Source: Nitrospirota bacterium (GTDB taxonomy: Bacteria > JACPQY01). From it: a stretch of DNA of 64,000 bases. The stretch is from the NCBI GenBank assembly GCA_016180645.1, contig JACPAV010000018.1, positions 57,035-121,034 on the forward strand, in the 5' to 3' direction. A model generated the notes under the pieces. The model saw only the letters and a program-made list of their open reading frames with translations. It searched no databases and was not told the origin of the DNA. Below, piece after piece: positions 25,044-50,840 of this stretch (its first letter is position 1; each line of letters begins with the position of its first letter). A program made the translations under genes and the position numbers.

Positions 25044-26570
25044 ATGAAGGTTCTTCTCGTCCAATCGCCTCGTTACTACTGGCCTTACGTCGGTGAGGGC
25101 GACAATCACCTGATGCCGCAATGGATGCCCTGTCTCGCGGCGTCGATCCGGCAGGCGGGTCACAGCGTACGCGCGGTCGATTGCATGGCCTCCCACATCG
25201 GATGGAGAAGCCTCGCCGACATCATCCGAGAAGAAAAGCCCCACGTCATCGGCGTCGGCGAGAATCACTGCCTCTACGCGCAGGAAGCGATCAAGGTCTT
25301 CCAACTCGCGAAGTCGATCGATCCCGGCATAAAGACGATTGCCGGCGGAGTCCATTTCACCAATTTGGTGGAGCCGAATCTCATGGCCTATCCCATCGAC
25401 TACATCGCGATCGGTGAAGGGGAGAAGACTTTCGTCGAACTATTGGACGAACTGGAGCGTCAAAATCCGCGGCCCGACAAGGTGACGGGACTCGCTTATC
25501 GCACCAACGGCCATGTCAGCCGGACCGCGCCGCGCGTCCTCGAGCACGATCTCGACACTTACCCCCTGCCCGCGTACGACCTCATGCCGATGGAGCAGTA
25601 CGGGAAATCGAAATACCTCTTCGCGCCCGGCGGGACGACCGCCCAGCACAGCCGGGGGTGCGTCAGCCGCTGCAATTTCTGCGTCTGGTGGGTGCAGAAC
25701 GCGGATCGAAAGATCATCAACGGTGAGGAAAAACTGTTCCCCCGCTGGCGCACGAAAAGCGTGGGGAGGACCGTCGAGGAAATCGAGATTCTCAGCCGGC
25801 GGTACGGGAAGAATTTTCTCGTGTTCGTCGACGACGCCTGGAACATCGACTGCCACTGGACCGACAAATTCGCAAACGAGATGGCCCGCCGCCATCTCCC
25901 CACCCAGTGGTTCGCTTTCATGCGCGCCGATTGCATGATGCGGGATGAACGGCTGGGCCTCAACGAAAAACTCGTCCATGCGGGAATGACCCACATCAGC
26001 ATCGGGGTTGAGCGCCATCAGGACACCGATCTCGCCGAAATGCGGAAGGGATTTTACAAGGACGACTTGACCCGCGAGTGTTTCGGCATGCTCAAGCGGA
26101 ATCATCCGACGGTGTTCCGACAAGGAACCTTCATCGTCGGTATCCGCGACGAAACGCGTGAAAGCATGTACCAGCAACTCCAGTACGCGAAGGAATTGGG
26201 ACTGGATTATCCCGGCTTCCATCCTCTCACGCCGGTCCCCGGCACGGAGGTATGGGAGGACGCAAAAGCCCGAGGGTGGATCGAGGTGGACGATTTCTCC
26301 TATTACGACTGGATGACGCCGATCATGTCGAGCACCCATCTCTCGCGCCGGGAGATCGAGGAAATCCTCATCGACATCAGCCGCAAATTCGTCGGCCTGC
26401 GATGGCTCATGCGGGGCCTCGCGGATCGGCACGCCTACCGCCGGAACATGTACGTCTGGTGGCTCCTGGTCAGCCTGCGCATCGCGGCGGACGCGCTGCG
26501 ACAAAAACTCAATCCGTTCCGAAAGAGCGTGTATACCGCGCTCGTCAAGCCGACCTGGTATGATCACTGA
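25044..26570 (+). CDS. B12-binding-domain radical SAM protein
   Basis: Residues 1 to ~140 form a Rossmann-like B12-binding-type domain starting MKVLLVQSPR and containing IAGGVHFTN and IAIGEGE. The radical SAM motif is Cys206/210/213 (SRGCVSRCNFC). FVDDAWN and the SIGVERHQD strand follow in the TIM-barrel part, and PGTEVWEDAKARGW lies near the end of the core. This is the architecture of methyltransferases and ring-forming enzymes such as BchE and HpnP-type proteins. Substrate unknown. The C-terminal ~100 residues include a Trp/Tyr-rich helical part. It is six bases from the next radical SAM gene, so the two form an operon; its promoter lies just upstream. Confidence 0.87.
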   Translation: MKVLLVQSPRYYWPYVGEGDNHLMPQWMPCLAASIRQAGHSVRAVDCMASHIGWRSLADIIREEKPHVIGVGENHCLYAQEAIKVFQLAKSIDPGIKTIAGGVHFTNLVEPNLMAYPIDYIAIGEGEKTFVELLDELERQNPRPDKVTGLAYRTNGHVSRTAPRVLEHDLDTYPLPAYDLMPMEQYGKSKYLFAPGGTTAQHSRGCVSRCNFCVWWVQNADRKIINGEEKLFPRWRTKSVGRTVEEIEILSRRYGKNFLVFVDDAWNIDCHWTDKFANEMARRHLPTQWFAFMRADCMMRDERLGLNEKLVHAGMTHISIGVERHQDTDLAEMRKGFYKDDLTRECFGMLKRNHPTVFRQGTFIVGIRDETRESMYQQLQYAKELGLDYPGFHPLTPVPGTEVWEDAKARGWIEVDDFSYYDWMTPIMSSTHLSRREIEEILIDISRKFVGLRWLMRGLADRHAYRRNMYVWWLLVSLRIAADALRQKLNPFRKSVYTALVKPTWYDH

Positions 26571-26576
26571 AACCTT

Positions 26577-27992
26577 GTGCGCGTAGCTCTGATCAATCCG
26601 AACATGGACAGCCTGAAGGCCGTCGGGGCCTTCAGCAAAGTGTACTGCGTCATGCCCCCGATCAACCTGGGTTACCTCGCCGCCGTGCTCGAAAAGGAGG
26701 GACACGAGGTGACCGTCATCGACGAAGCCGCGGAAGGGCTGAGCCTCGCGGAAATCATCGACCGCCTCCGACGGGCCTCCCCGGGCATGATCGGCATGGG
26801 CTGCCTCACACAGTCCGCGCCGCATGTCATGGAAATCAGCCGGGCCATCGCCGGGGCCTTTCCCGGCCTCCCCCGCGTGATGGGCAACACCCACGCGGAC
26901 TATTTCGCGGAGCCGATTCTCCGCGAGGGTGATGCGGACGTCGTGGTCCACAACGAAGGGGAATACACCTTCGCCCACCTGGCACGAACCTTCGAACACA
27001 AGGGCGACTTGCAAGAGGTCGAAGGGATTTCCTATCGGGACGGCGACCGGATCGTCCGCACGCCCCCGCGAACGATGCAACCGGATCTCAATCGGATCCC
27101 CTACCCCGCGTGGCACCTCTTCCCGCGCTCCCGCTACCGGCTTTTCACCTTCGCCGAAATCGAGCGGCCGGGCACGCTCATTCTCGGGTCTCGCGGCTGC
27201 CCGTTCAAGTGCAACTATTGCAGCCTGCTCATCATGGGACACGACCGCCGGCGGCGCACGCTCGAAGACATGGCCGACGAAATGGAGTTCATGCACGAAA
27301 CGTACGGCTACAGGCAGATCTCGTTCATCGATCCGATTTTTCCCTTCAGCCGGAAGGAAGGATTGGAGTTCGCTCAACTCCTCGTGAAACGGGGTCTGAA
27401 CCGGAAGATCGTGTGGACCACGGAAACCCGCGTCGATCTCGTGACGCCGGAGCTCCTCGAGGCGCTGAGGGAGGCCGGCTGCCGCAGGGTCATGTACGGA
27501 TTCGAGGTCGGCTCCGAGGAAAGTCTCGATGCCATCGACAAGGGAACGACGATTGACAAGGCCCGCCGCGCGGCCAAATGGACGAAGGAAGCGGGCATGG
27601 AAATCATCGGCTTCTTCATGGTCGGTTGCCCCGGCGAGACGCTGGAATCGATCGACCGTACCGTGCGGTTCTCACATGAACTGGACGTGGATTTCGCGAA
27701 GTTCAATGTGTTCGTCCCGTACCCCGGCACGGAGATCTTCGAGGAGTTCAGCAAGAAGAACGGCGGTCTCCCCACGGATTGGGTGCGATACACGAGCTAC
27801 CCGACGGGCGGAAACCCTCCCGTCTACATTCCGCCCGGACTGTCCGTGGAACAGCTCATCGTGGCCCAGCGACGAGCCCACCGGATGTTCTACCTCCGTC
27901 CCAAGATGATCGCGAGACACATGTTCAAAATCCGCACGATTCCTTTCTCTCATATGGTGTACGGCGCCCTCGGTCTTCTCGGGGAGAACTGA
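26577..27992 (+). CDS. B12-binding-domain radical SAM protein
   Basis: The 471-residue protein starts at GTG (MRVALINPNM). Its B12-binding-type domain covers residues 1 to ~140, and the radical SAM motif is Cys208/212/215 (SRGCPFKCNYC). It ends with the block MFYLRPKMIARH, shared in altered form by several radical SAM proteins of this window. It is a clear paralogue of the protein at 30794-32251: N-terminus, motif context and C-terminal block all correspond. Second gene of a two-gene operon. No enzyme activity can be assigned. The 132 bases after it, before the convergent methyltransferase gene, hold nothing recognisable. Confidence 0.87.
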   Translation: MRVALINPNMDSLKAVGAFSKVYCVMPPINLGYLAAVLEKEGHEVTVIDEAAEGLSLAEIIDRLRRASPGMIGMGCLTQSAPHVMEISRAIAGAFPGLPRVMGNTHADYFAEPILREGDADVVVHNEGEYTFAHLARTFEHKGDLQEVEGISYRDGDRIVRTPPRTMQPDLNRIPYPAWHLFPRSRYRLFTFAEIERPGTLILGSRGCPFKCNYCSLLIMGHDRRRRTLEDMADEMEFMHETYGYRQISFIDPIFPFSRKEGLEFAQLLVKRGLNRKIVWTTETRVDLVTPELLEALREAGCRRVMYGFEVGSEESLDAIDKGTTIDKARRAAKWTKEAGMEIIGFFMVGCPGETLESIDRTVRFSHELDVDFAKFNVFVPYPGTEIFEEFSKKNGGLPTDWVRYTSYPTGGNPPVYIPPGLSVEQLIVAQRRAHRMFYLRPKMIARHMFKIRTIPFSHMVYGALGLLGEN

Positions 27993-28124
27993 ATCCCTGC
28001 TCACAACGCGTCAGATGGGCGAGACCAGTACGCCGCGGGTACCCGCCCGGCCCCGCCAGATGTACAGACCCGGTCCACACAAAGCCAATGCGGGCGTGAT
28101 CTTTGCAGCTTGCCGAAGAAAATT

Positions 28125-28928
28125 CTACAAGGTGGAGGCGGACGGTTTGGCCAGCAGGAAAGCGAATTGGGTACGATCGTGCTTGAACTCAATGCCCCCG
28201 ACGTTGGGCAGCCTCCTCAGAAGGGTCTGCACTTCGGACGCCTCCCGGGACCTTCGGATCGATTCGAGCGTGGCCTTGCGGAGGCCACGGAGCAGATGCA
28301 CCCGCTCAAGGAGTTCCAAGTAGACTCGGAAAAGACGCACTTTCCAGTGACTGCGACTGAAATCCCATAAGACCAACCATCCTCCCGGTTTCACTACCGC
28401 CCACATCTCCCGAGCCATTTGTTCCGGATTCTCGAAGTGATGGATCGATCCCTCCGAAAAGACCAGATCGAAAAACAGCGGGCGAAATGGAAGCGATTTC
28501 GCGTCGTTACGCACGAGCAAGACCGGATTTTCGGCGGTCGAGTATTTCCTACACAGGCTTAGAATCTCCCGGTCCACATCGGATCCGACCCAGATGGACG
28601 GAGACGACGGCATTCTCCTCCGCATGATCTCCGTCATCACGCCGCTCCCAATTCCCACGTCGAGCACGGACCGGATATTCCCGTTCCAGAGATGCTGCCA
28701 TTTCTGGACACGCCGGTCCGCATAGGCAACCCGCCTGTCCCAGCTCTGGCGCACGAACTGTTCCTTGGTGATTCCCTCGAAATCGCTTCCCGGCGGAGTG
28801 TGCCCGTCGGGGGCGTCGCCTTCCCGGCAGACCGAGGGAGAGGGAGAGACCCGCGATGGAATGGACCGCGGTCCCGCGCTAAATGGGTCGATCAAATTCG
28901 ACGATTCGCCCAACATGGGGGAGTGCAT
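28125..28928 (-). CDS. Class I SAM-dependent methyltransferase
   Basis: The 267-residue protein has SAM motif I VLDVGIGSG near residue 89, an acidic loop (WVGSDVDREIL) and a Methyltransf_11-type motif IV region (FDLVFSEGSIHHFENPEQ), followed by VKPGGWLVLWDF. The first ~50 residues are Pro/Ser-rich and probably disordered, so the true start may be later; the given start overlaps the preceding gene by 50 bases. It is the last of four genes transcribed together (radical SAM, two U32-like proteins, methyltransferase). It probably methylates the product of those enzymes; substrate unknown. Confidence 0.8.
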   Translation of the reverse strand: MHSPMLGESSNLIDPFSAGPRSIPSRVSPSPSVCREGDAPDGHTPPGSDFEGITKEQFVRQSWDRRVAYADRRVQKWQHLWNGNIRSVLDVGIGSGVMTEIMRRRMPSSPSIWVGSDVDREILSLCRKYSTAENPVLLVRNDAKSLPFRPLFFDLVFSEGSIHHFENPEQMAREMWAVVKPGGWLVLWDFSRSHWKVRLFRVYLELLERVHLLRGLRKATLESIRRSREASEVQTLLRRLPNVGGIEFKHDRTQFAFLLAKPSASTL

Positions 28929-29661
28929 CCTTCTCCAGATACTTTGAAAGAATGAAGAGCGTATTGCCCGCGAGAATCCGTTCGCCCAGAGGTCCCTCCC
29001 GAATCACAAAGGTTGAGTTCTGACACTCCAGGTCGCATGCCTTGATCACCGGCGTGGCATCCGACGCTTCCCGAACACGGAGCCGGGCCACCGCACATAG
29101 GCGCGTCGTGGTCAGGTACCGGAACGGCACGTATAGGGCAATATCCAGCCGTGGGCCTATCATCTCGAACAACGCCGTGTCCCAAACGTCGGTCTCCAGG
29201 CCCCGAAATCCCAGTTCGCAGAGCAAACCGATCAGCGGCTCGGACACACGGGTGGCGAGCGGAGTTGCCCTGCCGTCGTCTCGAGGAACAAGTCTTGGGT
29301 CACGCGTTTGACGAAGGAGAAGGCGCCCAAGACGCAGGAGCAACCCGTTTTCGCGAGCGAGCCGGTACACCCCCCAGTCGTTAACAACCACCTCGTAGGG
29401 GTCGCCGACGGCCTTCGACAGGAGAGAGAATAGCTGCCCAATCCTGCGCAACCCCGATTCGCCAACGGGAGGGGTCAGAAGACTGAGGCGCTTGCCTTTG
29501 CCGCAAACGTCTTTCACCATCCGGTCGGCCCACACGGAGGAGGGGATCAAATGCTCGCAAAACTCCGAGCCAATGTAGAAGTGGTCGCACCGATCCAGCC
29601 AGGGAGAGAGATCCTCACGGGAAGGTGAGATGAACCTAGCCCTGACCACTCTACCAGGCAT
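28879..29661 (-). CDS. U32-like TIM-barrel protein (UbiV-like partner)
   Basis: The 260-residue protein resembles the shorter member of U32-type pairs such as UbiV. It begins MPGRVVRARFIS, has WLDRCDHFYIGSEFCEHL near the N-terminus, and ends with Cys residues in KACDLECQNSTFVI that may help hold an Fe-S cluster. A central segment reads DPYEVVVNDWGVYRLARENG. UbiU/UbiV pairs hydroxylate quinone precursors without oxygen; here the similarity is weak and the pairing with the next-door U32 protein is the main support. I chose ATG 29661, which overlaps the upstream stop by 11 bases, over an earlier in-frame ATG inside that gene. Confidence 0.55.
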   Translation of the reverse strand: MPGRVVRARFISPSREDLSPWLDRCDHFYIGSEFCEHLIPSSVWADRMVKDVCGKGKRLSLLTPPVGESGLRRIGQLFSLLSKAVGDPYEVVVNDWGVYRLARENGLLLRLGRLLLRQTRDPRLVPRDDGRATPLATRVSEPLIGLLCELGFRGLETDVWDTALFEMIGPRLDIALYVPFRYLTTTRLCAVARLRVREASDATPVIKACDLECQNSTFVIREGPLGERILAGNTLFILSKYLEKDALPHVGRIVEFDRPI

Positions 29662-30742
29662 GCCGGGGGGAGTCCGGGGGGTAATAGCAGGTTCTCGGGC
29701 CGCAGTTCCTACCGAAAACGCGGCGGTACTCAAGACAGCTCTCTCTAGCATGGTCTGAGTCTCGCTTGAAACCTTCGTCCCCTTGCCGCGTCAGGGCTGA
29801 CCGGATGAGGCGTATCGTCTGGGTCTTGCGTGTAGTCGTGCTTCCCCTGTTCACAATCTTGAGATACCTGATTCCTATTCGAACGAGGAGTGGAATGTCG
29901 CATAGAGCACATGCGGCGTAGACATCATGTTCTGCCAACACTTCTCGGACCTTTTCCTCGAGGGGACGTCCTCTCTCATCCATACCCTTGCCCTGCTTCC
30001 GCTCAATGCTCCTCGCATGAAGGCAAGCCAGAGCCGGCCGACCGGCGGCATGTCTCAGGCGATCCGGTACCAGGCGCATGGCGGCTTTGGCCGCATGGGT
30101 GGCCAGGAGCCTGGTCTGCAAAGAGCCCGGTATCTCGTGCGCGAGATTGCAGAAGCCGTCCTCGAAGGGGCAGCGATCGTGAAACACAAAGGCTTCGAAC
30201 TCCAGCTCGGGGTAAGCGACACAGAGCCGAGCCATTTCGCGGAGGGTAACATGGCGGGGCAGGACGATCCTACGTATCGGGAACCGCAGGTAGAACTTGA
30301 TCGCTTCCGTGTTGTACACCACGCCAAGACAGCTCAGAGTGAGAGGAAGGGGAAACCGACTGGTTTCCAAGCTCCGCAGAAGCCCCAAGTCCGCGACGAT
30401 CACCCCGTCGACGCCCGCGTCCTGAGCCCGCAACGCCTGCTGCATCGCCACCCCCAGGCTCTGTTCGTCGTAGAAAGTATTGAGTGCAAACTGGACGCGC
30501 AGGTTGGAACCGTGGGCCATCTTGACCAATTCCCTCAGTTGTTTCTCGCCATCCAGATTGCAAAGGGGATTGTCGCGCCGGTTGGTGGACGATCGTGTGG
30601 CACCTGCCCCCCGAAGACCGCAGTACACTTCGGAAGCCCCAGCCTCTGCCAACGCGGGGGCCTCGGTTGGAAAATCCATTCCCGTTACAACCCGGATTTG
30701 TCCTCGGACGGTTGTGGGAGGGCCGGTCATCACATCGAACAC
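29651..30742 (-). CDS. Peptidase U32-family protein (UbiU-like)
   Basis: The 363-residue protein has the U32 start APALAEAGASEVYCGL, then AQDAGVDGVIVADLGLL, LSCLGVVYNTEAIKFY and the central VFHDRCPFEDGFCNLAHE. A CALCDIPLLVRIGIRYLKI block and a C-terminal NCGPRTCYY follow. The Cys residues are placed as in U32 proteins that bind [4Fe-4S] and act as oxygen-independent hydroxylases (UbiU, RlhA, TrhP) rather than proteases. It lies 51 bases after a radical SAM gene and overlaps the UbiV-like gene. A role in hydroxylating a product of the locus is inference. Confidence 0.75.
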   Translation of the reverse strand: MFDVMTGPPTTVRGQIRVVTGMDFPTEAPALAEAGASEVYCGLRGAGATRSSTNRRDNPLCNLDGEKQLRELVKMAHGSNLRVQFALNTFYDEQSLGVAMQQALRAQDAGVDGVIVADLGLLRSLETSRFPLPLTLSCLGVVYNTEAIKFYLRFPIRRIVLPRHVTLREMARLCVAYPELEFEAFVFHDRCPFEDGFCNLAHEIPGSLQTRLLATHAAKAAMRLVPDRLRHAAGRPALACLHARSIERKQGKGMDERGRPLEEKVREVLAEHDVYAACALCDIPLLVRIGIRYLKIVNRGSTTTRKTQTIRLIRSALTRQGDEGFKRDSDHARESCLEYRRVFGRNCGPRTCYYPPDSPRHAW

Positions 30743-30793
30743 GCACAGACTTCTATCGACAACATGCCGGCGAAACCACCCCGCAAAAGGCCA

Positions 30794-32251
30794 TCAAGAT
30801 TGGGGCCGAAAACTCTCCAACGCCCCGGCACGGGATCGTGTCGCAAATTCCCAAAGAGCCGAGAGTCCGCCCGACAGCACCTCGCGCACAGGTGTTTTCT
30901 TCAGCTGAAACAGGTGGCGGTAAATCATTCGGGGACGAATGTAGAACTTGAAATGCGCGATCTTCTGCATCTCGATCAGGCTGGCCGAACTCAACCGGTC
31001 ATGCCGATACGGCAACTCCTTCGAGGGGTAAGCCCCGTATTCCGACCAATCGTGCGACCGGATGGCCCCGGCCTCCTCATATCGCCCGTAGAGCAGAGTC
31101 CCCGGGTACGGGACGACAAGGGGAAAGTTCGCCAGGTCCAAGTCCAAACTCTTCGCCAAATCCATGGTGCGGCGGAAGCTTTCCCAGTTCTCGCCGGGCA
31201 GACCGAGCATGAAGAATCCCACAACCTCGAAGCCGACGGCCCTCGCCGTCGCGACGGCCTCTCGCGCTTGGGCCACACTGGTGGACTTGCCCACCCCGCG
31301 CAAGAGGTCCTCGGAACCGCACTCAAGACCAAACATGACTCTCGTGCACCCGGCTTCGCGCATGGACTCACCGAGGGAGCGTGTAAACAGGTCCGGCCGC
31401 GTCTCCGAGACCCATGTGATTTTCTTGTGAAGTCTCCGGCGTATGATCTCCCCACACACCTCGTCACACTGGGCCGCGTTCACGGGGAAAATCGCGTCGA
31501 CAAACACAACGGCTTCGATGCCAAAGTGTTCGATGAGGTATTCGATCTCATCTGCAACGTTCTTGCCCGACCGCCGGCGAAAGCCCGGCCGGACGATTTT
31601 CCAATGCGCGCAGAATTGACAGCGATACGGGCAGTCTCGCCCTGCGGCAACCAACATGACTTTTCTTGCAATTTCCGCCAGCGGTATGGCTCGGTACTTC
31701 GCCAACGGTGCGAGGTGCCAGGCTGGGAAGGGCAGCGCATCCAGGTCCACGATCGGCTCCCGGTCGCCCGTATCGTGGATGGCCCCTCCCTCGATATAAG
31801 AGAGTCCGAGGACATCTCCAGGGTTTCGACCCTGCTCCAGCCTTGCCGCCAACTCGGACATTGCCTCCTCCCCTTCACCCCGCACAACAAAATCTGCGTA
31901 CCCTCGGAGGAGAAACTCCTCGCGAAATGTAACCGCATGCAAGTTGCCCATCACGACAGGCGCCAAGCGGGCCTCACGGACGCCTTGGCCGATCGCAACA
32001 GCCTCCGTGGCACTTGGAGTGACGCAGGTAATTCCCACGAGGCCGGGCCCAGCCTCCCCGATCCTTCGCACGACCTCCTCCGCGCAGAGTTTCTCCGCAA
32101 ATGCATCAATCAAGACGACAGAATGCCCGCGCTGTTCGAGGACGGCGGCAATGTATAACAGGCCCATGGGCGGCAGGGCATGATTGTATCGCGCAAACAG
32201 TCGCATCGTTTTTCTCTGATCGCATGAAGGATTAACGAGAACGATTTTCAT
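30794..32251 (-). CDS. B12-binding-domain radical SAM protein
   Basis: The 485-residue protein has an N-terminal B12-binding-type domain (MKIVLVNPSC, MGNLHAVTFR) and radical SAM motif Cys207/211/214 (DCPYRCQFC). FVDAIFPVN and MFGLECGSEDLL follow in the barrel. The C-terminal KFYIRPRMIYRHLFQLKK corresponds to the end of the protein at 26577-27992, its closest paralogue here. It heads the four-gene minus-strand operon with the U32 pair and the methyltransferase. Product unknown. Confidence 0.87.
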   Translation of the reverse strand: MKIVLVNPSCDQRKTMRLFARYNHALPPMGLLYIAAVLEQRGHSVVLIDAFAEKLCAEEVVRRIGEAGPGLVGITCVTPSATEAVAIGQGVREARLAPVVMGNLHAVTFREEFLLRGYADFVVRGEGEEAMSELAARLEQGRNPGDVLGLSYIEGGAIHDTGDREPIVDLDALPFPAWHLAPLAKYRAIPLAEIARKVMLVAAGRDCPYRCQFCAHWKIVRPGFRRRSGKNVADEIEYLIEHFGIEAVVFVDAIFPVNAAQCDEVCGEIIRRRLHKKITWVSETRPDLFTRSLGESMREAGCTRVMFGLECGSEDLLRGVGKSTSVAQAREAVATARAVGFEVVGFFMLGLPGENWESFRRTMDLAKSLDLDLANFPLVVPYPGTLLYGRYEEAGAIRSHDWSEYGAYPSKELPYRHDRLSSASLIEMQKIAHFKFYIRPRMIYRHLFQLKKTPVREVLSGGLSALWEFATRSRAGALESFRPQS

Positions 32252-39757: not shown

Positions 39758-39833
39758 CGGTTCATACTACCCCCGCTTGGGAGCCTTGACAAAACTCCTG
39801 AGAGGAGGCGTATTTCATCCCAAGGATCGGCAC

Positions 39834-42068
39834 ATGACGTTGAAACCGCACCGCCAGGCCATGTCAAACCTCAGAAGGGGTTGGGGATGCGCTCTCGCCG
39901 CGGCGATGATCGCGGCGGGTTGGCTGCACCTCAAGTCTGTGGGCTCCGGCGTCCTCCCGGAGGAGCTCATGGCCTATGATGTGGCGCGAGGGATCGCAGC
40001 GGGTGAGCCTCCCCCGCTGCTTCTCAATTCGTACATGCTTCCGTTCTATGAGTATGCGCTGGCCCCCCTCACGGAGCTGGGCCCGATCTCGGCCAGGCTG
40101 CTGGCGAAAGCGGGCGCCGTCGGCTCCATCGGTCTGACGTTTGTGCTCACCCGCCTTTGGCTCGGCACTACACCCGCCCTATGGGCTTCAGCTCTTTTCG
40201 GCGGCTCCACCTTCCTTTTTTACCTGTCCAGTCACGGAGCCTACTTTCAAACCCCCCTATGGTCGCTTCTCACTCTCACGCTTTTCTCGGCCGGCTGGAA
40301 AAGGGCGTCCGGCATCCTGATCGCCGCGTCCGGTCTCTCCTTCGGCCTGGAGATGGGATTCCTTCTTTTCTTTTCCATCACTCCCCTCGTGATCGGGCTC
40401 TTCTGTCTTCTGGCCGGGACTTGGCGGAGAACCCTTCGCGTTGGCCTCTGGTTTGTTCTCGGCTCATCCGTGGTTCTCCTTCCCCTCGGTTGGTCGCTCC
40501 TCCGGAATCACCCGAGCGACCTGTTCCTCTTCTGGGACGCCTTGGCCGGGGGCGGTCCGCACATGCACATCGAGGTCAAGCGACCCTTGACGTCCCACCT
40601 CGTGCCCAAGTTCTTGGAGTTCCTCCAAGGTCTTTGGTACTGCCTGATCGGCCGTCTGCCGTTGTGGCCGCGGGTCGATCTTCTCGCCATCCCGCTTCTC
40701 TTTCTGTGCGCCCTCGTCGGCCTGCACCGTCATGCGAACAAGACGGCCCGAGAGGCCAACCTTTTCTTGCTGGCATGGTTCTACTCGGCCCTCGTCGTCC
40801 TTTCATGGATCGTCACCTGGCTGCATCCCCACGAATCCGCCGGGGGGGAGATCATGCTGCGCCCTCTGTGGTACTACTTGGTCCTTTTCCCGATGCCCTT
40901 CATGGCCATTGCACGTTTTGCGGGCGCGACGGATAGGGGAGAGCCACGCTCCAGGCGCGGAATAGTTCTGGCCATTGCCGCCTGTACCCCATTCCTGCAA
41001 CTGTGGACCGTCGCCTCTGAAGTGATCCCCGTCCAAAACGCCAACCAACGCGCCGCTCTTGATTTCATTCGTTCCCGACTGAACCATGTTGATCTCGTGT
41101 TCAGCAACGTCAACATATTCAACTATGGCGACCTCAAGGAATTCCGGCCGGCCATCCGTCCGAGCCAAGACTTTTACGAATCACAGGGCCGATGGCTACC
41201 GGCGGATTCCGGTGCGTTCCTATCTCGCTTTCCTTACTTCATCTATGCCCGACAGATCACGGATACGTACAACGCAACGCTTCGGGGAGAGGCGGAGAGT
41301 CCTGTGCCCGCTCTCATCTCCTTCTCCGACCTGCCGATCCAGCCGCCGCACAGTCCATCCCCATCCAAGCCCATGGCGTTCAGGGAATTGAACATTGCCT
41401 ACCTCCTCCGTGTAACGCCTGTAGGTCGGGAATCGCCCAGGATCGGGCCAACAACCTCAACGTCCGGAGTTGACCGTACGGAGCCGGCCCTACGCAAATC
41501 CTTCGCGGGGATCTCGCCCATTCAAACGTGGAACTTCGCCGGCCGGAGAAATTATGTCCTGTATGTCGTGCCGATATCGGTTCCCACAGCGGCTCCCGCG
41601 AAGTTCCTTTTCGAACCCCGCGCGGACGAATCCCTACCGGGATCATACGCGGGTACCCGAGGGCAGTTGTTTCTCGACGCCATCGGGTTTGGATGGGACC
41701 ACAATCTATGGCTGGAGGAGGTGTCGGCCGTAGACGCAGCCGGCGAACCCAGGCGTGGCTTGTCCTCCGCTCTGTCGAACGCCTTCCGATGGAAGGTGGG
41801 ACCGGGCCGGTATGTCGTTACATTGACCTGGTTTCACTCCTGCGTCGGTGATCCCAACCTGATGGTGGAGAACGTCCCCTTGCGACTCCTTCCGGCCGGA
41901 GACTGCGGGACCGGGGGCCGGCCGACGACTCTCGAGTCGTCTTCACCCGTCGAGGTGAGCGACGGCCGTCTGGACCTCGTCATTCAACCCACGCCTGGAG
42001 GTTGGAAAACATGGGGATTGGTTTCTCTCGAGATTAGGCCCATCGAGGCGTCCCTCGGGGCGCGCTAG
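39834..42068 (+). CDS. Large GT-C-like membrane protein with C-terminal soluble domain
   Basis: The 744-residue protein has an N-terminal helix, then PEELMAYDVARGIAAGE (acidic outer loop) and about ten further membrane helices to residue ~400, as in PMT-type glycosyltransferases. The final ~350 residues are soluble and end in a beta-rich part (VSLEIRPIEAS). AAGGA lies seven bases before the ATG. A TTGACA at 39786-39791 could be its -35 box; a matching -10 is weak. Residues encoded near 41411-41500 are low-complexity and may derive from a repeat insertion. Confidence 0.65.
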   Translation: MTLKPHRQAMSNLRRGWGCALAAAMIAAGWLHLKSVGSGVLPEELMAYDVARGIAAGEPPPLLLNSYMLPFYEYALAPLTELGPISARLLAKAGAVGSIGLTFVLTRLWLGTTPALWASALFGGSTFLFYLSSHGAYFQTPLWSLLTLTLFSAGWKRASGILIAASGLSFGLEMGFLLFFSITPLVIGLFCLLAGTWRRTLRVGLWFVLGSSVVLLPLGWSLLRNHPSDLFLFWDALAGGGPHMHIEVKRPLTSHLVPKFLEFLQGLWYCLIGRLPLWPRVDLLAIPLLFLCALVGLHRHANKTAREANLFLLAWFYSALVVLSWIVTWLHPHESAGGEIMLRPLWYYLVLFPMPFMAIARFAGATDRGEPRSRRGIVLAIAACTPFLQLWTVASEVIPVQNANQRAALDFIRSRLNHVDLVFSNVNIFNYGDLKEFRPAIRPSQDFYESQGRWLPADSGAFLSRFPYFIYARQITDTYNATLRGEAESPVPALISFSDLPIQPPHSPSPSKPMAFRELNIAYLLRVTPVGRESPRIGPTTSTSGVDRTEPALRKSFAGISPIQTWNFAGRRNYVLYVVPISVPTAAPAKFLFEPRADESLPGSYAGTRGQLFLDAIGFGWDHNLWLEEVSAVDAAGEPRRGLSSALSNAFRWKVGPGRYVVTLTWFHSCVGDPNLMVENVPLRLLPAGDCGTGGRPTTLESSSPVEVSDGRLDLVIQPTPGGWKTWGLVSLEIRPIEASLGAR

Positions 42069-42071
42069 TCT

Positions 42072-42983
42072 TCAGCCGCCGCGCGCTTCTTCGCGCGAAC
42101 TCGGCCCTCTTTGCGGAGATTTCTCGGCCACCAGCAGGGATTTCCACGCCCATCTCGGGAAACGCGGCAACAGAAATCGATCCGCCAGCGCATCCACCTT
42201 GACGGTGAGGTGCAGCATGAGAAGGAGACCCTTGGCGGCCCGAGAGGACCCAAGCGCCAGCACCTCCGCGCAGTAGAGGATGAAATCGGAAAGGAGCGTG
42301 TGGTCACAACGACGGCGCACTTGGAATCCATTCTCCTCCAGCAATTGAACAATCCTATCCGGATCCATCGCGCTTTCATCGGGGCTCATGAGGCGGGTGC
42401 GTCTGCCGACCCAATTGACGATGGGACGGGAAATGTGTCCTCCATTCGGATCGACGAGAAAGAGCTTGCCGCCGTCTCTAAGAACCCTCCTGGCCTCCTG
42501 AAGAGCATCTACGGGAGACGAAAGATGATGAAACACCTGGGAGAGCCACGCGGCGTCGAAACTCGAGGATCGAAACGGAAGGACTTCGATCGCCGCCTGG
42601 ACCGTCCTTCCTCCCGCGACCTCGATGTCTTCCCCGCAGACGGTCCGCGGCGATTTCGCCACACCCCTTCGAAGGTGCCCCAGCGAAACGTCCACCCCGA
42701 TGGCCAAGCATTCAGCCTTCTCCTGAAAGTAGGAAGCATGTCGCCCGTCTCCACAGCCAAGGTCGAGAAGACGGAGCCCCCTGATCTCATCGAGGTCAAC
42801 CAAGGCCACGGCCCGATCGAAAGTGCGCGCAGCCAGACCTTTCAGCCGGCCCTCCAGGCCGGAGGCGCCGAGTTCCTGAAACCAGAGTGTTCGGGAATCG
42901 TAGAAGGCCCTTTCATGGTCCCATCGAACCCCGCGGCTTCGAGCGTTGGCCGGGCCTGAATCGCGTGTTATTCTATCGGCCAT
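42072..42983 (-). CDS. Class I SAM-dependent methyltransferase
   Basis: The protein of about 303 residues has SAM motif I LLDLGCGDGRHA near residue 76, AIGVDVSLGHL as the acidic loop, and AAWLSQVFHHLSSPVDALQE as motif IV, then LRDGGKLFLVDPNGGH. This is the Methyltransf_11 type. A hydrophobic segment near residue 245 suggests membrane association, and a lipid or quinone-like substrate would fit. ATG 42983 and ATG 42995 are both possible. It is convergent with the GT-C gene (3-base gap) and divergent from the broken radical SAM gene, with which it shares the CATG at 42981-42984. Confidence 0.8.
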   Translation of the reverse strand: MADRITRDSGPANARSRGVRWDHERAFYDSRTLWFQELGASGLEGRLKGLAARTFDRAVALVDLDEIRGLRLLDLGCGDGRHASYFQEKAECLAIGVDVSLGHLRRGVAKSPRTVCGEDIEVAGGRTVQAAIEVLPFRSSSFDAAWLSQVFHHLSSPVDALQEARRVLRDGGKLFLVDPNGGHISRPIVNWVGRRTRLMSPDESAMDPDRIVQLLEENGFQVRRRCDHTLLSDFILYCAEVLALGSSRAAKGLLLMLHLTVKVDALADRFLLPRFPRWAWKSLLVAEKSPQRGPSSREEARGG

Positions 42984-44507
42984 GTCCTGCGTCATCCTGA
43001 TTCACTTGGCGTTCGACCCTCCCTCCGGCCATGTCGACAAGAAGATCCGCTACCAGCGCATCCAAAGACGGCCCCAACTGGGCCTGCAATACATCGCGGC
43101 CGTCTTGGAAAACCTCGGACACGCCACCGAAATCTGGGACCAGGCGGTTGAGCGTTTCACCATGGAAAGCCTCCTGGCCCGGATGAGCCGCACAAAACCA
43201 CTCTTCTTCGGCTACTACTCTCATTCCTTTGTCCGGGACAAGCTATGCCGTCACCTCCGCCAAATCAAGCCCATCGTTTCCTCAAAACTGATTGTGGGTG
43301 GGCCTGGTGCGTTGCACGCCAAAGACTTCCTGGAGGCAGGGGCGGACGGCGTGGTGCGAGGCGAAGCTGAAGCCGTCTTGCCTGCGTTGGTCCGCTTCTG
43401 CGGCGGCGAGATACCCGGAGGGTCGGTCCCGAGCTTCGCATTTTTCGAGCCGGGCGGGATCCACTCCACACCCACCGCGACCCCTATCGCGGATTTGGAT
43501 ACGTTGCCTTATCCGAAACGCGAACCTTTCCAACCCGATGCCTACCACGACTATTTCATACCCACGATGAGGTCCCCCTACGCAACCTTGATCACCTCTA
43601 GAGGTTGCCCCTACACGTGCACCTTTTGCGGCTCACCGACTCAATGGGGCCATAAGGTCCGACAACGGTCGGTCGAGAACGTCCTCAGCGAAGAACAGAA
43701 GGGACGCGTCCCCGCCTGGTGTCCTCTGTGTCCCACCCTTCAACCCGCCCCGGCCCACCGGGCCACCCACCGCGCGACGCGCGGATGTGCATTTTGCACC
43801 CCTACAGCTTCCGCGGCCCGCGAAAAGCGGAATTCTTCAGACTCTTGAGGCAAGCGGGATGCAACTTCATATCCTTCGGACTCCAGTCGGCGGATCCCGG
43901 GATTCTGGAAAATATCCAGCGCCATGCCGACGAACCGGACCACCTCGAAGAAAGCCTGCGATTCGCCCGGCAGAACGGCATCATGACCGTTGTGGATTTC
44001 ATACTCGGCCTGCCCGGCGAAACCCGTGAGACGGCGGAACGCACGGCACGGTTCATCCAAACGACCCAGGCGGATTTGGTCAATCTACATCGGCTGACCC
44101 TGTTGGACGGAACCGAGATCGGCGAGCGATTCGACCCCCTTCATCCGCCGTGCAACATCTCGCAGGACGAATTGACGGAAATGTGTGAGAGACTGAACCG
44201 CATGTTTTACGGCAATCCGAGACGAATCGCCCGACTGGGCCTCGGGGTCCTTCGCGCGAACCCGGGGTGGTTTCTCCATGCGCATCGTTTCCTCGGCGCC
44301 TATCTGAATGTGTCGGGATTCTCCAGGCCGAGACCTCGGGCGGCCGCTTCAGCCGAACCCCGCTCGTCTACGTTCTTAGGACGCCCGCCGCTGTCTGAAA
44401 CCACGCCGGGACTTGCGCCGGATCCTGCAAGACCCGCCACACCACCGCGAGCAGCTTCCTCGGCCTACCGTAAAATCTCAAATTCGCGCGCAGCGTTTCG
44501 GCCCTGA
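42982..44507 (+). pseudogene. B12-binding-domain radical SAM gene broken by frameshift and internal loss
   Basis: The first part encodes an intact B12-binding-type domain (VGGPGALHAKDFLEAG, VRGEAE) and radical SAM motif Cys209/213/216 (SRGCPYTCTFC). After RQRSVENVLSE at about 43700 the frame becomes a Pro/Arg-rich run. The family sequence resumes in another frame near 43790 with HPYSFRGPRKAEFF, AGCNFISFGLQSADPGIL and LGLPGETRETAE. The expected FxDDxF barrel strand is missing, so about 30 codons seem lost as well as the frame changed. The resumed frame lacks its own stop at the normal end and runs 140 bases into the convergent gene. It may be a true pseudogene or an assembly error. Confidence 0.75.
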
Positions 44508-45675
44508 GCTCCGGCGAATAGTGGAAGAATGGCTCATGGATATCCACCAACATGTTGAAATGGGCGAAATCGAGAGGGAGGGAGAGGGCCAGAGCCAGGG
44601 TCTCCCGGACCGTCCGGGGTGTTTCCCCTGCCAACCCCAGAACAAAAAGCCCCGTAGCTTCCAATCCCACACTCTTGACCAGATGGACGGCCATTCGAGC
44701 CTGCTCAACGGTGGCCGACTTGAGGTGCCGGTCGAGGAGGGCCTGGCTGCCGGTTTCCAGGCCAAAGGAGATCTGGTGGCATCCGGCGCGCCGCATGAGG
44801 ATCAGCAACTCTGAGTCCACCTCGTCCACCCGCGCCAGACATCTCCAACTGAACCGAACATTCCGCCGCAGGATCGCCTCGCAGATTTCGAGCGCCCAGT
44901 CCCGCCGATGCGTGAAAACGAGATCTTTGAAATTAATTTGCGGAATACCGTTGCGATCGAGGATCGCCGCGATTTCCTCCACCACATGGGCCGGACTGCG
45001 ATAACGAACTTTGGCCCCGAACCACAAGGAATCCGGGCAGAAGGCACAGGCATAGGGGCAACCCCGCGACGCCTGGATCGTCGTATAGGGCGCCCGCCGG
45101 TCGAGAATGGAACGGTATCTTCTCACGTCCATCAGGCCGCGATCCGGGATGGGAAGGTCGTCCAGACGGGCGACCCAGGCGCGCTGCCCCAGCACCACCG
45201 CGCCGTCGCTCCGGTGGGCCAGGGAACGTTCAGGTTGGCCGCGCAGGAAATCCAAGAGCGGCATTTCGGGCTCTCCCTGGATCACGTAATCGACGCCGCC
45301 CGCCAACGCCGGTCGCGGGTCAACCGTAACGTTCGCGCCCGCGAAGAGGACCCGCAGATCCGGAAGGGCGGCCTTGACCGCCTGAATGAGCGCCAAATCA
45401 TCCTCGAGGGAGTACCACGTTGAAATCAGGAGAAGGGCCGGTGCCGGTTGCTCTCGAAGGTATCCCGCGATTTCGCCGGCTCCCCATCCCCGCGAGTCCG
45501 CGTCCAGGAAGTCCGCTTTGAATCCGGAGGCCCGCGCCCACGTGGCCAGTCCGGCCAAGTCGACCGGCGGGTACGGGATGGCCGCCGGCAGGAGCCCTCC
45601 CGACCAGTCCCGGATCACGGCGACAGGCCGGCCCTTCCACTTGCCGGAAGGATGGAGGAACAAGATATCGTTCAT
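44368..45675 (-). CDS. B12-binding-domain radical SAM protein
   Basis: The 435-residue protein starts MNDILFLHPSGKW; the B12-binding-type domain includes LFAGANVTVDPRPAL and IQGEPEMP. The radical SAM motif is Cys206/210/213 (SRGCPYACAFC), with FKDLVFTHRRDWALE and SFGLETGSQALLD following. ATG 45675 lies four bases after the upstream gene's stop, preferred over an ATG inside it. It is the last of four genes in one minus-strand operon (radical SAM, diiron protein, radical SAM, radical SAM). Confidence 0.87.
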   Translation of the reverse strand: MNDILFLHPSGKWKGRPVAVIRDWSGGLLPAAIPYPPVDLAGLATWARASGFKADFLDADSRGWGAGEIAGYLREQPAPALLLISTWYSLEDDLALIQAVKAALPDLRVLFAGANVTVDPRPALAGGVDYVIQGEPEMPLLDFLRGQPERSLAHRSDGAVVLGQRAWVARLDDLPIPDRGLMDVRRYRSILDRRAPYTTIQASRGCPYACAFCPDSLWFGAKVRYRSPAHVVEEIAAILDRNGIPQINFKDLVFTHRRDWALEICEAILRRNVRFSWRCLARVDEVDSELLILMRRAGCHQISFGLETGSQALLDRHLKSATVEQARMAVHLVKSVGLEATGLFVLGLAGETPRTVRETLALALSLPLDFAHFNMLVDIHEPFFHYSPELRAETLRANLRFYGRPRKLLAVVWRVLQDPAQVPAWFQTAAGVLRT

Positions 45676-45679
45676 GGAT

Positions 45680-47095
45680 TCAGCCCGCAAATCCCAGGAA
45701 ATAGCGGAGCCCGTGCCAGTAAGGCTTGGCGTCCTCCCATGATCGGATCCTTCTCAGGTGTTTCCAGAAGAAACCCGGTCTGAGATAGAAGCGTCGGTAG
45801 GCCCGCAGGAACATTCTCGAAACCTCACGCTCATCCTTGTACCCCGTGGGAACGAAGGACGGTTCCTTGAAGTGATAATCGTAGTTCTCCTTGATGCGTC
45901 CCATTTTTCGACACAACTCCAGAAATGCGTGGACTCCTCCCTCCGGGTAGCACAGGTTGAAGATCGCGTGGTCCAAGTCCAGTTCAATCGCGAATCGGAT
46001 GGTCCGTTCCCCTTTTTCCGGAGTTTCGCCCGGCAGCGCCAGGATGAAAAAGGCCGCCGGCGAAATCCCGACTTCATGGGTCCACCGGACCACTTCCCGG
46101 GTCTGCTCGATCGTAATTCCCTTCTCCACCAAGTCCAACAAGTCTTGGCTCCCCGATTCGATTCCGTACGTGATCATCCAACAGCCGGCGTCCGCCATGG
46201 CCCGAAGGATCCCCCGGTCCACGGAATCGATTTTCGTCTCGCAGCTCCAGCTCACCCCCATTCCGCTTCGGGCCATGCGTTCGCAGAACTCAAACATCCA
46301 CTTCCGACGATTGACGAAGTTATCGTCCTCGAAGTATATATCGCGGATACCGTACTCCTGTTGGACCTTCCGAATATCCTCAACCACGCGCTCGGGAGAA
46401 TGGCGGCGGTACTTTACCTTGAATTGCTCCGTGAGGGCGCAAAACGTGCACTGGGCATAGTCGCATCCCCGGGCGGTGACCATGGGGAGCGTCGGGAGTC
46501 TTCTCCATTTGTGGGGAAGCGGTCGATACCTCTTGAGATCGTACAGACGCCAAGCCGGGGAAGGCAGCGAATCAAGATCCGAGACCAAAGATCGAGGGAG
46601 ATTCTTTCTTATGCCCCCCTCGGGCAAGCGGTAGATGATTCCTTGAACGCCATGCCAATCCTCGCCCGCTTCGGCACGCGCGCAGATCTCGCTCAGGGTC
46701 TCTTCGGCTTCACCATAGACGAGGGCGTCGATCTCCGGGCATTCAAGGAGCGACTCTTCGTTCGTAGCCGTAACATGCGGGCCTCCCAGCAGAACCGGAA
46801 CGGGAAAAGATCGCTTCAGTGTCCGAATGAGCGCGAACGCCTGCTGAGACCAGAGGGTCAGGGCGTTCACCCCGATGAGATCGGGACCGAATTCTCCGAG
46901 ACGTCTCGTGATGACCCCCTCCGGAATTCCTTCCGCAAGGGCATCGATCAGGAGGGTCTGATGACCGGCTTTCTCCAGCATTGCTCCGATGTATCCGAGT
47001 CCCACCTGGGGCTGGATGGACAGATTCTCATTCAATTTGATGCCGTAGAGCTGCCTGTAGATGTTGTAGGGCGGAGTGACCAGCGCAAACTTCAT
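45680..47095 (-). CDS. B12-binding-domain radical SAM protein with CX4CX2C motif
   Basis: The 471-residue protein begins MKFALVTPPYNIYRQLYG; the B12-binding-type domain has VLLGGPHVTATNEES and VYGEAEE. The cluster ligands are Cys211, Cys216 and Cys219 (ARGCDYAQCTFC), giving CX4CX2C instead of the CX3CX2C of all its neighbours here. FEDDNFVNRRKWMFEFCE and YGIESGSQDLLD follow, and RFYLRPGFFWKHLRRIR is the shared C-terminal block. The ATG overlaps the stop of the diiron protein gene (ATGA), so the two are translationally coupled and may act on the same substrate. Confidence 0.87.
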   Translation of the reverse strand: MKFALVTPPYNIYRQLYGIKLNENLSIQPQVGLGYIGAMLEKAGHQTLLIDALAEGIPEGVITRRLGEFGPDLIGVNALTLWSQQAFALIRTLKRSFPVPVLLGGPHVTATNEESLLECPEIDALVYGEAEETLSEICARAEAGEDWHGVQGIIYRLPEGGIRKNLPRSLVSDLDSLPSPAWRLYDLKRYRPLPHKWRRLPTLPMVTARGCDYAQCTFCALTEQFKVKYRRHSPERVVEDIRKVQQEYGIRDIYFEDDNFVNRRKWMFEFCERMARSGMGVSWSCETKIDSVDRGILRAMADAGCWMITYGIESGSQDLLDLVEKGITIEQTREVVRWTHEVGISPAAFFILALPGETPEKGERTIRFAIELDLDHAIFNLCYPEGGVHAFLELCRKMGRIKENYDYHFKEPSFVPTGYKDEREVSRMFLRAYRRFYLRPGFFWKHLRRIRSWEDAKPYWHGLRYFLGFAG

Positions 47096-47811
47096 GCGGC
47101 CTTCGAGTCGGAGGGGAACACACGCAGGAGAAGATCGTCCCAGAAACACCGACGGGCATCCAGCGAGGCATGGGCCCCAACCTGGATGTCTTCCCACGCC
47201 CTTCCTCCCGTCGCGTACTTCCCGATGAGTTCGGAGAAGATCCTGCCGTGTTCCTTGTCTTGCTCAATGTGGAGGTGGAAATACTCCATGTCATCCCTGG
47301 ACACCTGTCCCCATGCCTCGAGGCCTTGCCGGAGGTAGCCGAACATGGTCGGCAGCGACCATTCATGGCCGGGACCCATCGCACCCATCCCCACCCAAAG
47401 CGAGGAGCGCCGGGTGAGCTTCCAATGCGTTGCGACAAACCTATCGGTTCCCGGCGCCCAATTCACGAAGTCCCACGTCTTTCTGGGCACGCCCACGGAC
47501 AGCAGAAACTTCTCATACAGGCGCGGATGACTCTCGGAGGGGTTCACTCCCCCATACTCGTCCGCCAAGACCTCTCGAAGCTTGTCTGAAATCTCACCCG
47601 GACCGGACGTCTTCATGAGCGACGTAATGTACTTGGGGAAAACCTTCACCAACTGATAGTGCTGGAGGGCAAAGGCCCGAACTTGATCCATCGTGAGATC
47701 GCCCCGCGACATCCTTTGCAGAAAAGGGTGGTGAAGAGCCGGATGTGCGAAGACGGTTCTTTCAAGCGCCGAAACGATGCTGCGGCCCGAGCCTCCCTCT
47801 CGACTGGACAT
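47092..47811 (-). CDS. Haem-oxygenase-like diiron protein (TenA/PqqC/CADD superfamily)
   Basis: The 239-residue all-helical protein has HPFLQRMSRGDLTMDQVRAF and FALQHYQLVKVFPKYITSL near the start, then LADEYGGVNPSESHPRLYE. Putative iron ligands are Glu85, His95, Glu150 and the HxxxDxxH set His181/Asp185/His188, the pattern of haem-oxygenase-like diiron oxidases such as CADD, BesC and UndA. These use O2 for C-C or C-H cleavage or for p-aminobenzoate synthesis. I started at the ATG giving MSSREGGSGR; the upstream open frame is non-coding. It is coupled by ATGA to the next radical SAM gene. The 128 bases before it hold nothing recognisable. Confidence 0.78.
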   Translation of the reverse strand: MSSREGGSGRSIVSALERTVFAHPALHHPFLQRMSRGDLTMDQVRAFALQHYQLVKVFPKYITSLMKTSGPGEISDKLREVLADEYGGVNPSESHPRLYEKFLLSVGVPRKTWDFVNWAPGTDRFVATHWKLTRRSSLWVGMGAMGPGHEWSLPTMFGYLRQGLEAWGQVSRDDMEYFHLHIEQDKEHGRIFSELIGKYATGGRAWEDIQVGAHASLDARRCFWDDLLLRVFPSDSKAA

Positions 47812-47939
47812 GGTCGAATTGTATCGTTTTGACTCTACCTTGCAAATCTCCACGCCTTCACGGGATGCGCCGCTCGATGAAAGACCTCCCCTCGGCTCCA
47901 CGGATTCATGGTGTTTGCTGCTGGATCGGCCTCCTCCCG

Positions 47940-49319
47940 CTACCTGGAGCGGTCCGGGGTTGACCCGGCTGCGGAGGCCGCCGGAAGGAGATCTTCCCGC
48001 TTCAATCTGAGCCGATCCGCGCGTCGCAGGTCGAACAGGGCCCGGGCGGTGGCATAGTGATACATGGCTTTCGTTCCCCGCGGCGAGCGCCAACACCGCG
48101 GGGCGAGAAATCGCCGCCCCCAGTGGAACCCGCCGACCTCCGAACTGAGGCGGCGGAACTTCTCAAAGTCCGCCCGTTGCTCATCCAGGTCGGATCGGGG
48201 CAACGGCTGATCGATCGCCCAGAAACTATTGTTCAGGAGCACCATGCGATGCCGTCTCCACAATTTCAGAACGGCCTCAACGTACCCCACCGCGCGATGC
48301 GCAAGACCGTCATCCACGAACAAGTAGACCCGGCAGTTGCGACCACGCAAATACTCCATGAGATGGCTCAGGTATTCGAAGTTCGTTCGTCCCGACTTAT
48401 CGGCATGGTTCCGCTCCGAACTGAACCAGAAGTGGCACGAGTTGAAAACGTTCAACATCCGATCGAGAACCCTCTCCTCCGGCAGGTTGTAGAATTCAAA
48501 ATACAAATCCAGATCGTATTTTTCTGAAAAGACCGGCTCGACGTACCTCCATCCATAGGCATCTACAAAGTCGCTGATCATGTGGACCGTCCGCACCCGA
48601 GGGTCCGCGCTCCAATGGCGAAGATCGTCCCGGATGCTCTCCGGGGTCCGACGCGCGACGCCTCGCCCCATGATCGCGCGCTGCAGCTTGGGATTGCCAT
48701 AGCAGAATTCACAATCATAGAGACACCCCTTCATGGCCGGGACCCAAGGGTAGATCAGGGTCGGAAAAGGGTTCTCCTGGTATCGGTACATCACTTTCTC
48801 GAAGGAAGGAAACCAGTCGAGCGCTCGATAGTCGGATCGGCTGTACTCCTCCGCACCAACCCGATAGGCAAAGGGGGATGAAAACTCCTTGGCGATAAGG
48901 TTCGGAACGTGCGCGGGGTCTCCACCCTCCATCAACGCATGAACCAGTTGGGGAAAGGGACCCTCCGCGTCCCCTCGAATGACAAAATCCACCTGGGACC
49001 CCGACACCAGTGCTCTTCCCAGAACGGAGGCCGTATAGCCGCCGACAACAATTTGGATCGAAGGGTTGATCCGCTTGTAGGCTTCAGCCAGTCGGACCAA
49101 CCGGTCCAAAGTGTAGTACCAGTGCAGATCCATGGCCACGACTTTCGCCCGGCGGAGGTGAGCTTCCGTAACCTCCCTCTCGAAAAGACCGAGCTTCGGA
49201 TACGGAATACTGTTCATGAGCGGGACAACGCCCATGGGAATGATATGGTTTTGCCCCTCCCGACCCGGACGAGGGTGAACATACAGCACCCTCGCCGTGT
49301 CGCTTCCTTCACGACGCAT
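47940..49319 (-). CDS. B12-binding-type radical SAM protein
   Basis: The 459-residue protein begins MRREGSDTARVLYVHPRPGR; its N-terminal domain has IVVGGYTASVLGRAL and IRGDAEGPFPQL. The radical SAM motif is Cys199/203/206 (KGCLYDCEFC). The barrel part is less like that of the other copies: HMISDFVDAYGWRYV replaces the FxDDxF strand, and LYFEFYNLPEERVLD follows. It is the first gene of the four-gene operon leading to the diiron protein. The 265 bases between it and the divergent 49585 gene show no recognisable gene. Confidence 0.83.
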   Translation of the reverse strand: MRREGSDTARVLYVHPRPGREGQNHIIPMGVVPLMNSIPYPKLGLFEREVTEAHLRRAKVVAMDLHWYYTLDRLVRLAEAYKRINPSIQIVVGGYTASVLGRALVSGSQVDFVIRGDAEGPFPQLVHALMEGGDPAHVPNLIAKEFSSPFAYRVGAEEYSRSDYRALDWFPSFEKVMYRYQENPFPTLIYPWVPAMKGCLYDCEFCYGNPKLQRAIMGRGVARRTPESIRDDLRHWSADPRVRTVHMISDFVDAYGWRYVEPVFSEKYDLDLYFEFYNLPEERVLDRMLNVFNSCHFWFSSERNHADKSGRTNFEYLSHLMEYLRGRNCRVYLFVDDGLAHRAVGYVEAVLKLWRRHRMVLLNNSFWAIDQPLPRSDLDEQRADFEKFRRLSSEVGGFHWGRRFLAPRCWRSPRGTKAMYHYATARALFDLRRADRLRLKREDLLPAASAAGSTPDRSR

Positions 49320-50793: not shown

Positions 50794-50803
50794 CCGCAAA
50801 CGC

Positions 50804-50840
50804 CGGGGGCGGCCGTAGGCAGCGCCCCCGCGGTCTGTTT
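50804..50840 (+). terminator. Predicted intrinsic terminator
   Basis: CGGGGGCG (50804-50811) and CGCCCCCG (50823-50830) form a strong GC stem with an 11-base loop, followed by CGGTCTGTTTTA. It lies just after the toroid gene and before the GT2 gene, separating the two units. Confidence 0.55.

Follow-up and report, generated by a model that had tools for sequence, protein, structure and literature searches.

Cobalamin (B12)-dependent radical S-adenosylmethionine (SAM) enzymes are among the largest enzyme groups with few known reactions. Nine genes of this type, designated r1–r9, form an array at positions 25044–49319 of a 64 000-nucleotide stretch of a Nitrospirota genome (bases 57035–121034 of contig C18; hereafter the window). 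The described enzymes closest to the array as a whole are BchE and HpnJ, cobalamin-dependent radical SAM enzymes with the same domain order and cluster motif, and the B12 radical SAM enzymes of TIGR04295, which are likewise encoded in a sugar gene cluster with epimerases and glycosyltransferases. Other described systems resemble single operons of the array. AprD4, a radical SAM 1,2-diol dehydratase of apramycin biosynthesis, removes a hydroxyl group from an aminoglycoside precursor jointly with the reductase AprD3 (PMC5461906), and UbiU–UbiV is an O2-independent hydroxylase containing one [4Fe-4S] cluster per subunit (PMC6747719). A fold family with CADD and BesC, the heme-oxygenase-like diiron oxidases, is shared by a further gene product. 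Literature searches yielded no account of arrays of this kind, nor of U32 protein pairs whose genes accompany those of a radical SAM enzyme and a methyltransferase.

An initial annotation of the window proposed that the nine genes arose by local duplication followed by diversification and that their product is a modified glycolipid, a hopanoid-like compound or a cell-surface glycan. In this study, the array was analyzed by family models, phylogeny, structure prediction and comparison of gene neighbourhoods. Characterized families were compared through NCBIfam models; HpnP, OxsB and most other characterized sequences lie outside the tree, in which the BchE and TIGR04295 references are distant relatives from a plasmid search. 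Within its phylum, the source genome (4.7 Mb, 97% complete) was compared with one further genome, G001 (84% complete), which is the nearest in the set scanned. As the set contains only two genomes of the phylum, the source lineage is barely sampled.

Organization and family identity of the array

The cluster is real and uncharacterized. Within 24.3 kb, nine radical SAM genes are identified by Pfam, eight of them intact and one, r6, broken. The Pfam B12-binding domain is found in eight of the nine, in r5 below the curated cut-off, and r4 gives no match; the cluster motif is retained in all of them, as CX3CX2C in eight and as CX4CX2C in r8. The genome carries approximately 21 B12 radical SAM genes, 12 of which are located outside the array, and chance alone would place about 0.1 of them in a 24.3 kb segment (for nine, the binomial probability is about 7e-16). 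Gene overlaps, with corrected start codons, define four tight operons, namely r1–r2, r3–U32–X1–MT1, r4–GTC1–DAC–GTC2 and r9–HDO–r8–r7, in addition to the single genes r5, GTC3 (39834–42068, + strand; a multi-helix membrane protein, GT-C-like by topology, without a Pfam family), MT2 (42072–42995, − strand; a SAM methyltransferase by family models) and r6. The count of nine genes within 24 kb, one of them broken, and the division into four operons plus singles, both given in the initial annotation, were therefore confirmed. Its list of neighbours required refinement: two methyltransferases, a deacetylase, one heme-oxygenase-like diiron protein and one clear U32 protein are present, whereas the second U32 protein is X1, a putative remote member of the UbiV type. 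Among the GT-C transferases that it named, GTC1 exceeds the Pfam PMT_2 gathering score by 0.1 bit (26.2 versus 26.1 bits), and the rest can be described only as multi-helix membrane proteins of no assigned family.

Judged by their domains and motifs, all nine are predicted members of the cobalamin-dependent radical SAM superfamily. However, none of the proteins reaches the cut-off of any curated NCBIfam family, in agreement with the earlier view of the array as undescribed. The best curated model is BchE for r1, r2, r3, r7 and r8 and HpnJ for r4 and r5, with scores far under the cut-offs: at most 204 bits (r3) against 481 bits for BchE (TIGR02026) and at most 183 bits (r8) against 578 bits for HpnJ (TIGR03471). 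The ladderane-type radical SAM model (TIGR04072) gives at most 117 bits (r3) against 360 bits, all nine are far below the HpnR cut-off, and a scan of the source genome with HpnJ returned no match at E 1e-100; the hopanoid-like product is thus not supported. None of the nine groups with TIGR04295 in the tree or meets its cut-off. The locus therefore supplies eight intact B12 radical SAM enzymes from families without a curated name, and their neighbours suggest sugar or polyprenyl substrates.

Phylogeny

Two trees were built, one of 191 homologues found in the scanned genomes and a mixture-model tree of 60; in these the nine genes fall into at least seven clades, all without a characterized name, the placement of r6 being uncertain. 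The r1 gene groups with six orthologs from other genomes in a clade that is sister to BchE; r4 belongs to a well defined family and r5 to another, r7 and r8 are each placed elsewhere, and r9 represents a deep separate clade. A clade of eight contains both r2 and r3, together with members from G001, G258, G036 and G071. These two appear to be the sole close kin within the array, yet r3 is more distant from r2 than the G258 gene is, which argues that they are not recent duplicates. When r1–r5, r7 and r8 were forced into one clade, the tree became 1126 log-likelihood units worse (approximately unbiased test, p-AU 3e-53). The method is able to detect duplication, since five of the eight radical SAM genes in an array of another genome, G168, were recovered as true local duplicates.

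The initial annotation had also pointed to a C-terminal (R/K)FYLxP block. A block of this type is indeed common to six of the nine (r2, r3, r4, r6, r7 and r8); however, it recurs in 99 of the 182 homologues outside the array, i.e. over half, and is therefore a family-wide feature rather than a mark of local duplication. As for the possibility that a tree might scatter the nine among unrelated, well known families, they do scatter, but among uncharacterized clades.

The broken gene r6 (42982–44507, + strand; parts 42982–43848 and 43719–44507) was recognized by Pfam and a frame check. The barrel segment expected to join residue 251 of the first part to residue 33 of the second is not encoded in any frame. 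A single-base frameshift was consequently rejected; r6 has degenerated or lost part of its sequence, damage that goes beyond one missed base. In G001, a third radical SAM gene, which follows the r1 and r2 orthologs (L022:3738-5185), is similarly split into two frames.

The r1–r2 module

The genes r1 (25044–26570, + strand; 508 amino acids), identified by Pfam, the tree and a genome scan, and r2 (26577–27992, + strand; 471 amino acids), which starts 6 bp past r1 and was identified by Pfam, the tree and its G001 ortholog, alone among the genes of the array have orthologs in that nearest genome. The two orthologs are 76% and 73% identical, respectively, and are adjacent in the same order. Full-length r1 homologues are present in eight of 290 genomes scanned, from seven families. 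An r2-clade gene is located on the contig of the r1 homologue, within approximately 10 kb of it, in both G071 and G036, and in five other families a large multi-helix membrane protein adjoins the r1 homologue or is at most two genes away (one PMT_2, one MMPL and three without a family). The r1–r2 module is thus supported by sequence conservation outside the window, both in the nearest genome and through co-location in two distant lineages. The expectation that the same gene set would recur elsewhere holds for r1–r2 and for the U32–X1 pair described below; however, r3–r9 have no G001 ortholog, and one single pathway is unsupported.

A UbiU/UbiV-like pair in the r3 operon

The second operon, on the − strand, contains r3 (30794–32251), the nearest relative of which in the array is r2 (about 40%), U32 (29651–30742), a UbiU-like U32 protein by Pfam with six invariant cysteines, X1 (28879–29661; the longest reading starts at 29751) and MT1 (28125–28928), a SAM methyltransferase of the Methyltransf_11 family. 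X1 has no match in Pfam or NCBIfam. Its homologues occur in 11 of the 290 genomes besides its own, with a U32 homologue adjacent in ten of these 11 distant hits, and Cys65, Cys219, Cys239 and Cys243 (numbered on the longest reading) are invariant in all 11 sequences. The similarity of X1 to Escherichia coli UbiV is weak (E 0.06, control 0.43); the four cysteines nevertheless align in order with the iron–sulfur ligands of UbiV (PMC6747719), in a CXnCX19CX3C pattern as against the UbiV motif CXnCX12CX3C. The predicted model of X1 matches many TIM barrels, among which the U32 protein 5d88 ranks third (Z 13 over 197 residues), a result that is consistent with a U32 protein but is not specific. X1 is therefore best regarded, on its cysteines and its neighbourhood, as a remote UbiV-type partner of U32.

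The U32 protein itself is a homologue of UbiU (E 3e-25 for the E. coli protein), and the C-X6-C pairs of the two line up. However, the UbiU motif CX6CX16CX38C is not reproduced: CX6C is retained and the third cysteine is present in seven of 11 sequences, while C278-X2-C281 and C347-X4-C352 are invariant instead. As in UbiU–UbiV, the two proteins are encoded as an adjacent pair, but the operon of the window also includes a methyltransferase and a radical SAM enzyme, and X1 is undetected by the family databases. No gene for the accessory protein UbiT was found among the 25–49 kb neighbours scanned, the rest of the genome being outside the search. Elsewhere, the X1 homologue of G121 (L082:9281-10660) is fused to a methyltransferase domain and lies beside a U32 gene and an r4 homologue, a methyltransferase adjoins the pair in G258, and radical SAM genes are close to it in G189. 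In other genomes the pair neighbours transporters, which argues for a reusable module. By analogy with the O2-independent hydroxylase UbiU–UbiV, hydroxylation followed by O-methylation would be the most economical reading of the operon. The pair offers a chance to ask whether hydroxylation of the UbiU/UbiV type reaches beyond ubiquinone and nucleic acids.

The r4 operon and r5

The r4 gene (32606–34165, + strand) is translationally coupled, through overlapping genes, to GTC1 (34162–35730), a GT-C membrane glycosyltransferase by Pfam PMT_2, and to DAC (35730–36566), a NodB-type polysaccharide deacetylase with DUF3473 according to family models (XrtA-type, below the cut-off). The operon ends with GTC2 (36563–38371), a multi-helix membrane protein without a Pfam family that is GT-C-like by topology. 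In an alignment of the r4 family, which has at least 20 members, the N-terminal part is strongly conserved. Despite the lack of a Pfam B12 match, the N-terminal half of the AlphaFold model of r4 (predicted local distance difference test score 87) adopts the Rossmann-like fold seen in enzymes of this type. By both sequence profile and fold, the best solved structure for r4 is AprD4; the model superposes on the AprD4–paromamine complex (6fd2) with a Z score of 35.5 and a deviation of 2.5 Å over 415 residues, the next best structure giving a Z score of 26.8. However, the two sequences are only 24% identical, r4 scores 108 bits against a cut-off of 500 bits for the AprD4 family (NF033070), and the context differs, with GT-C and deacetylase genes and no aminoglycoside genes. 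Since its sequence score is far under that of the AprD4 model, r4 is classed as AprD4-like in predicted fold only. A short-chain dehydrogenase gene at 20081–20899, which bears on the question of an AprD3-type reductase, is unlinked to the operon. The composition of the operon would suit radical chemistry acting on an amino sugar, and r4 provides a direct test case for AprD4-like sugar dehydration in cell-surface glycans outside antibiotic producers.

The single gene r5 (38360–39757, − strand) was assigned by Pfam and the tree. Genes of its clade adjoin an r4 homologue in each of G220 and G078, and in G172 one is near an r4 homologue.

The r9–HDO–r8–r7 operon

The fourth operon, on the − strand, contains r9 (47940–49319), HDO (47092–47811), r8 (45680–47095; by Pfam and its motif) and r7 (44368–45675; by Pfam and family models). 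r9 is divergent, with only remote relatives (about 30% identical), and its clade shows weak similarity to TIGR04190. HDO belongs to the CADD/BesC superfamily and retains all six metal ligands (E, H, E, H, D, H) of the heme-oxygenase-like diiron oxidases. However, it falls under both curated cut-offs, with 82 bits against 200 bits for CADD (TIGR04305), and it has leucine where CADD has tyrosine at residue 27. The operon may perform oxidative tailoring; nothing more specific is proposed.

Association with glycan genes

A GT-C-like gene lies at most one gene from the radical SAM gene at seven of 20 r4-family loci and at seven of 20 other loci (14 of 40 in total), compared with 12 of 134 more distant genes, i.e. 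about 9% (P of about 0.005, assuming independence). The neighbourhood link between GT-C-like and radical SAM genes is thus real but modest, and a link specific to r4 was rejected because the rate is equal at the other loci.

The best parallel outside the window is an array in the unrelated genome G168, where eight B12 radical SAM genes are intermixed with genes for PMT_2, YfhO and a number of SLBB/Poly_export proteins over approximately 30 kb (contig 15, 177–206 kb; L250–L252, 176001–215000). One of these genes is in the r9 clade and one is r5-like, and an r1 ortholog is located about 107 kb away on the same contig. The gene families of the neighbours suggest polysaccharide export. In kind, then, the proposed link with glycans is favoured by the GT-C enrichment, by the export genes of G168 and by the structural proximity of r4 to a sugar dehydratase, whereas the hopanoid-like product is not.

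Interpretation of the locus

Starting from the domains, motifs, operons, conserved neighbourhoods, scattered phylogeny and predicted fold of r4, we infer every substrate and the overall product. The reading that we tentatively prefer, although we rate it somewhat below an even chance, is that of a composite locus which assembles and tailors a cell-surface glycan or its polyprenyl-lipid carrier and was built from independently acquired modules, not from one duplicated gene. GT2 (50940–51671, + strand), a family 2 glycosyltransferase that reads as DPM1-like, would make a polyprenyl-phosphate sugar, to be used outside the inner membrane by the putative GT-C transferases, and the radical SAM enzymes would alter unactivated carbons of sugar or lipid units ahead of export. 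Most plausibly, the AprD4-like r4 would strip a hydroxyl group from an (amino)sugar by radical dehydration, with DAC in the same operon providing the free amine. r3 may act with the UbiU/UbiV-like pair, which would perform the O2-independent hydroxylation, and with MT1, which would O-methylate the new hydroxyl group, while r1 and r2 would be a conserved couple of the BchE-like class. With less assurance, we suggest that islands of many unrelated B12 radical SAM enzymes with GT-C proteins, as in the window and G168, could be a recurrent undescribed type of surface-glycan locus. Radical chemistry at such loci, comprising deoxygenation, C-methylation, and UbiU/UbiV-like anaerobic hydroxylation with O-methylation, would build novel sugars or lipid carriers.

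Several observations weigh against this reading. None of the genes within 25–49 kb was identified as a classical gene for glycan export or nucleotide sugars, and most of the membrane proteins there have no family, so for them the GT-C label is a topology guess. The GT-C enrichment is modest and is shared equally by r4 and the other radical SAM genes. The lack of orthologs of r3–r9 in G001, the sole other genome of the phylum and itself incomplete, means that conservation gives no proof of joint function. Furthermore, HDO requires O2, whereas the radical enzymes are O2-sensitive.

The explanation that stays close to this one, and which is distinctly possible, is a hotspot that has collected unrelated radical SAM operons from different pathways, sharing only their location, possibly through horizontal transfer into a permissive region. 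Such a history would suit the scatter over at least seven clades and the rejection of a single clade, the restriction of G001 orthologs to r1–r2, the mixed strands of the four separate operons and the broken r6. However, nine of about 21 genes lie within 24 kb, the r4 and r5 clades are again neighbours in G220, G078 and G172, an r4-like gene stands beside U32, X1 and a methyltransferase in G121, and the GC content is uniform across the region.

It is unlikely that the product is instead a small secreted natural product, a modified quinone or another isoprenoid. Such a pathway would combine UbiU/UbiV-like hydroxylation, O-methylation, C-methylation or ring closure by the B12 radical enzymes, oxidation by HDO and late glycosyl transfer. 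Although U32–X1–MT1 resembles the anaerobic tailoring of the ubiquinone ring, HDO resembles the tailoring enzymes CADD and BesC, and r1, r2, r3 and r8 suggest BchE-like chemistry, the family scan of 25–49 kb showed no enzyme that would form a backbone (polyketide synthase, non-ribosomal peptide synthetase, terpene cyclase, prenyltransferase or precursor of a ribosomally synthesized and post-translationally modified peptide), and the membrane transferases and deacetylase suit glycans better. One array born by duplication and yielding a hopanoid-like compound or modified glycolipid is very improbable. The FYLxP-type block in six of the nine and the shared clade of r2 and r3 speak for it, but the block is also found in over half of the outside homologues, the rejection of the one-clade tree refutes the duplication, and the HpnJ, HpnR and ladderane models are far from their cut-offs.

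Other features of the window

Downstream of the array, 49426–53086 encodes two proteins without a Pfam family, the first of which resembles GH88 and GH127 barrels at a sub-threshold level only. Three more multi-helix membrane proteins, O3–O5, were recognized by topology at 53133–58036; O5 has a weak PMT_2 match, and O3 and GTC1 have no detectable mutual similarity. Upstream, 10–12545 contains molybdenum enzyme subunits (Molybdopterin, Fer4 and DmsC), a gene for a Rieske and pyridine-nucleotide oxidoreductase, MoaA, MoaC, MoeA and a sigma-54 activator, and 15961–19778 contains two consecutive AAA/STAND-like ATPase genes, one bearing TPR repeats. Near the contig end, a 303 bp tandem repeat (62021–63572; 5.1 copies, 85% matches) is probably part of a gene for a repetitive surface protein.

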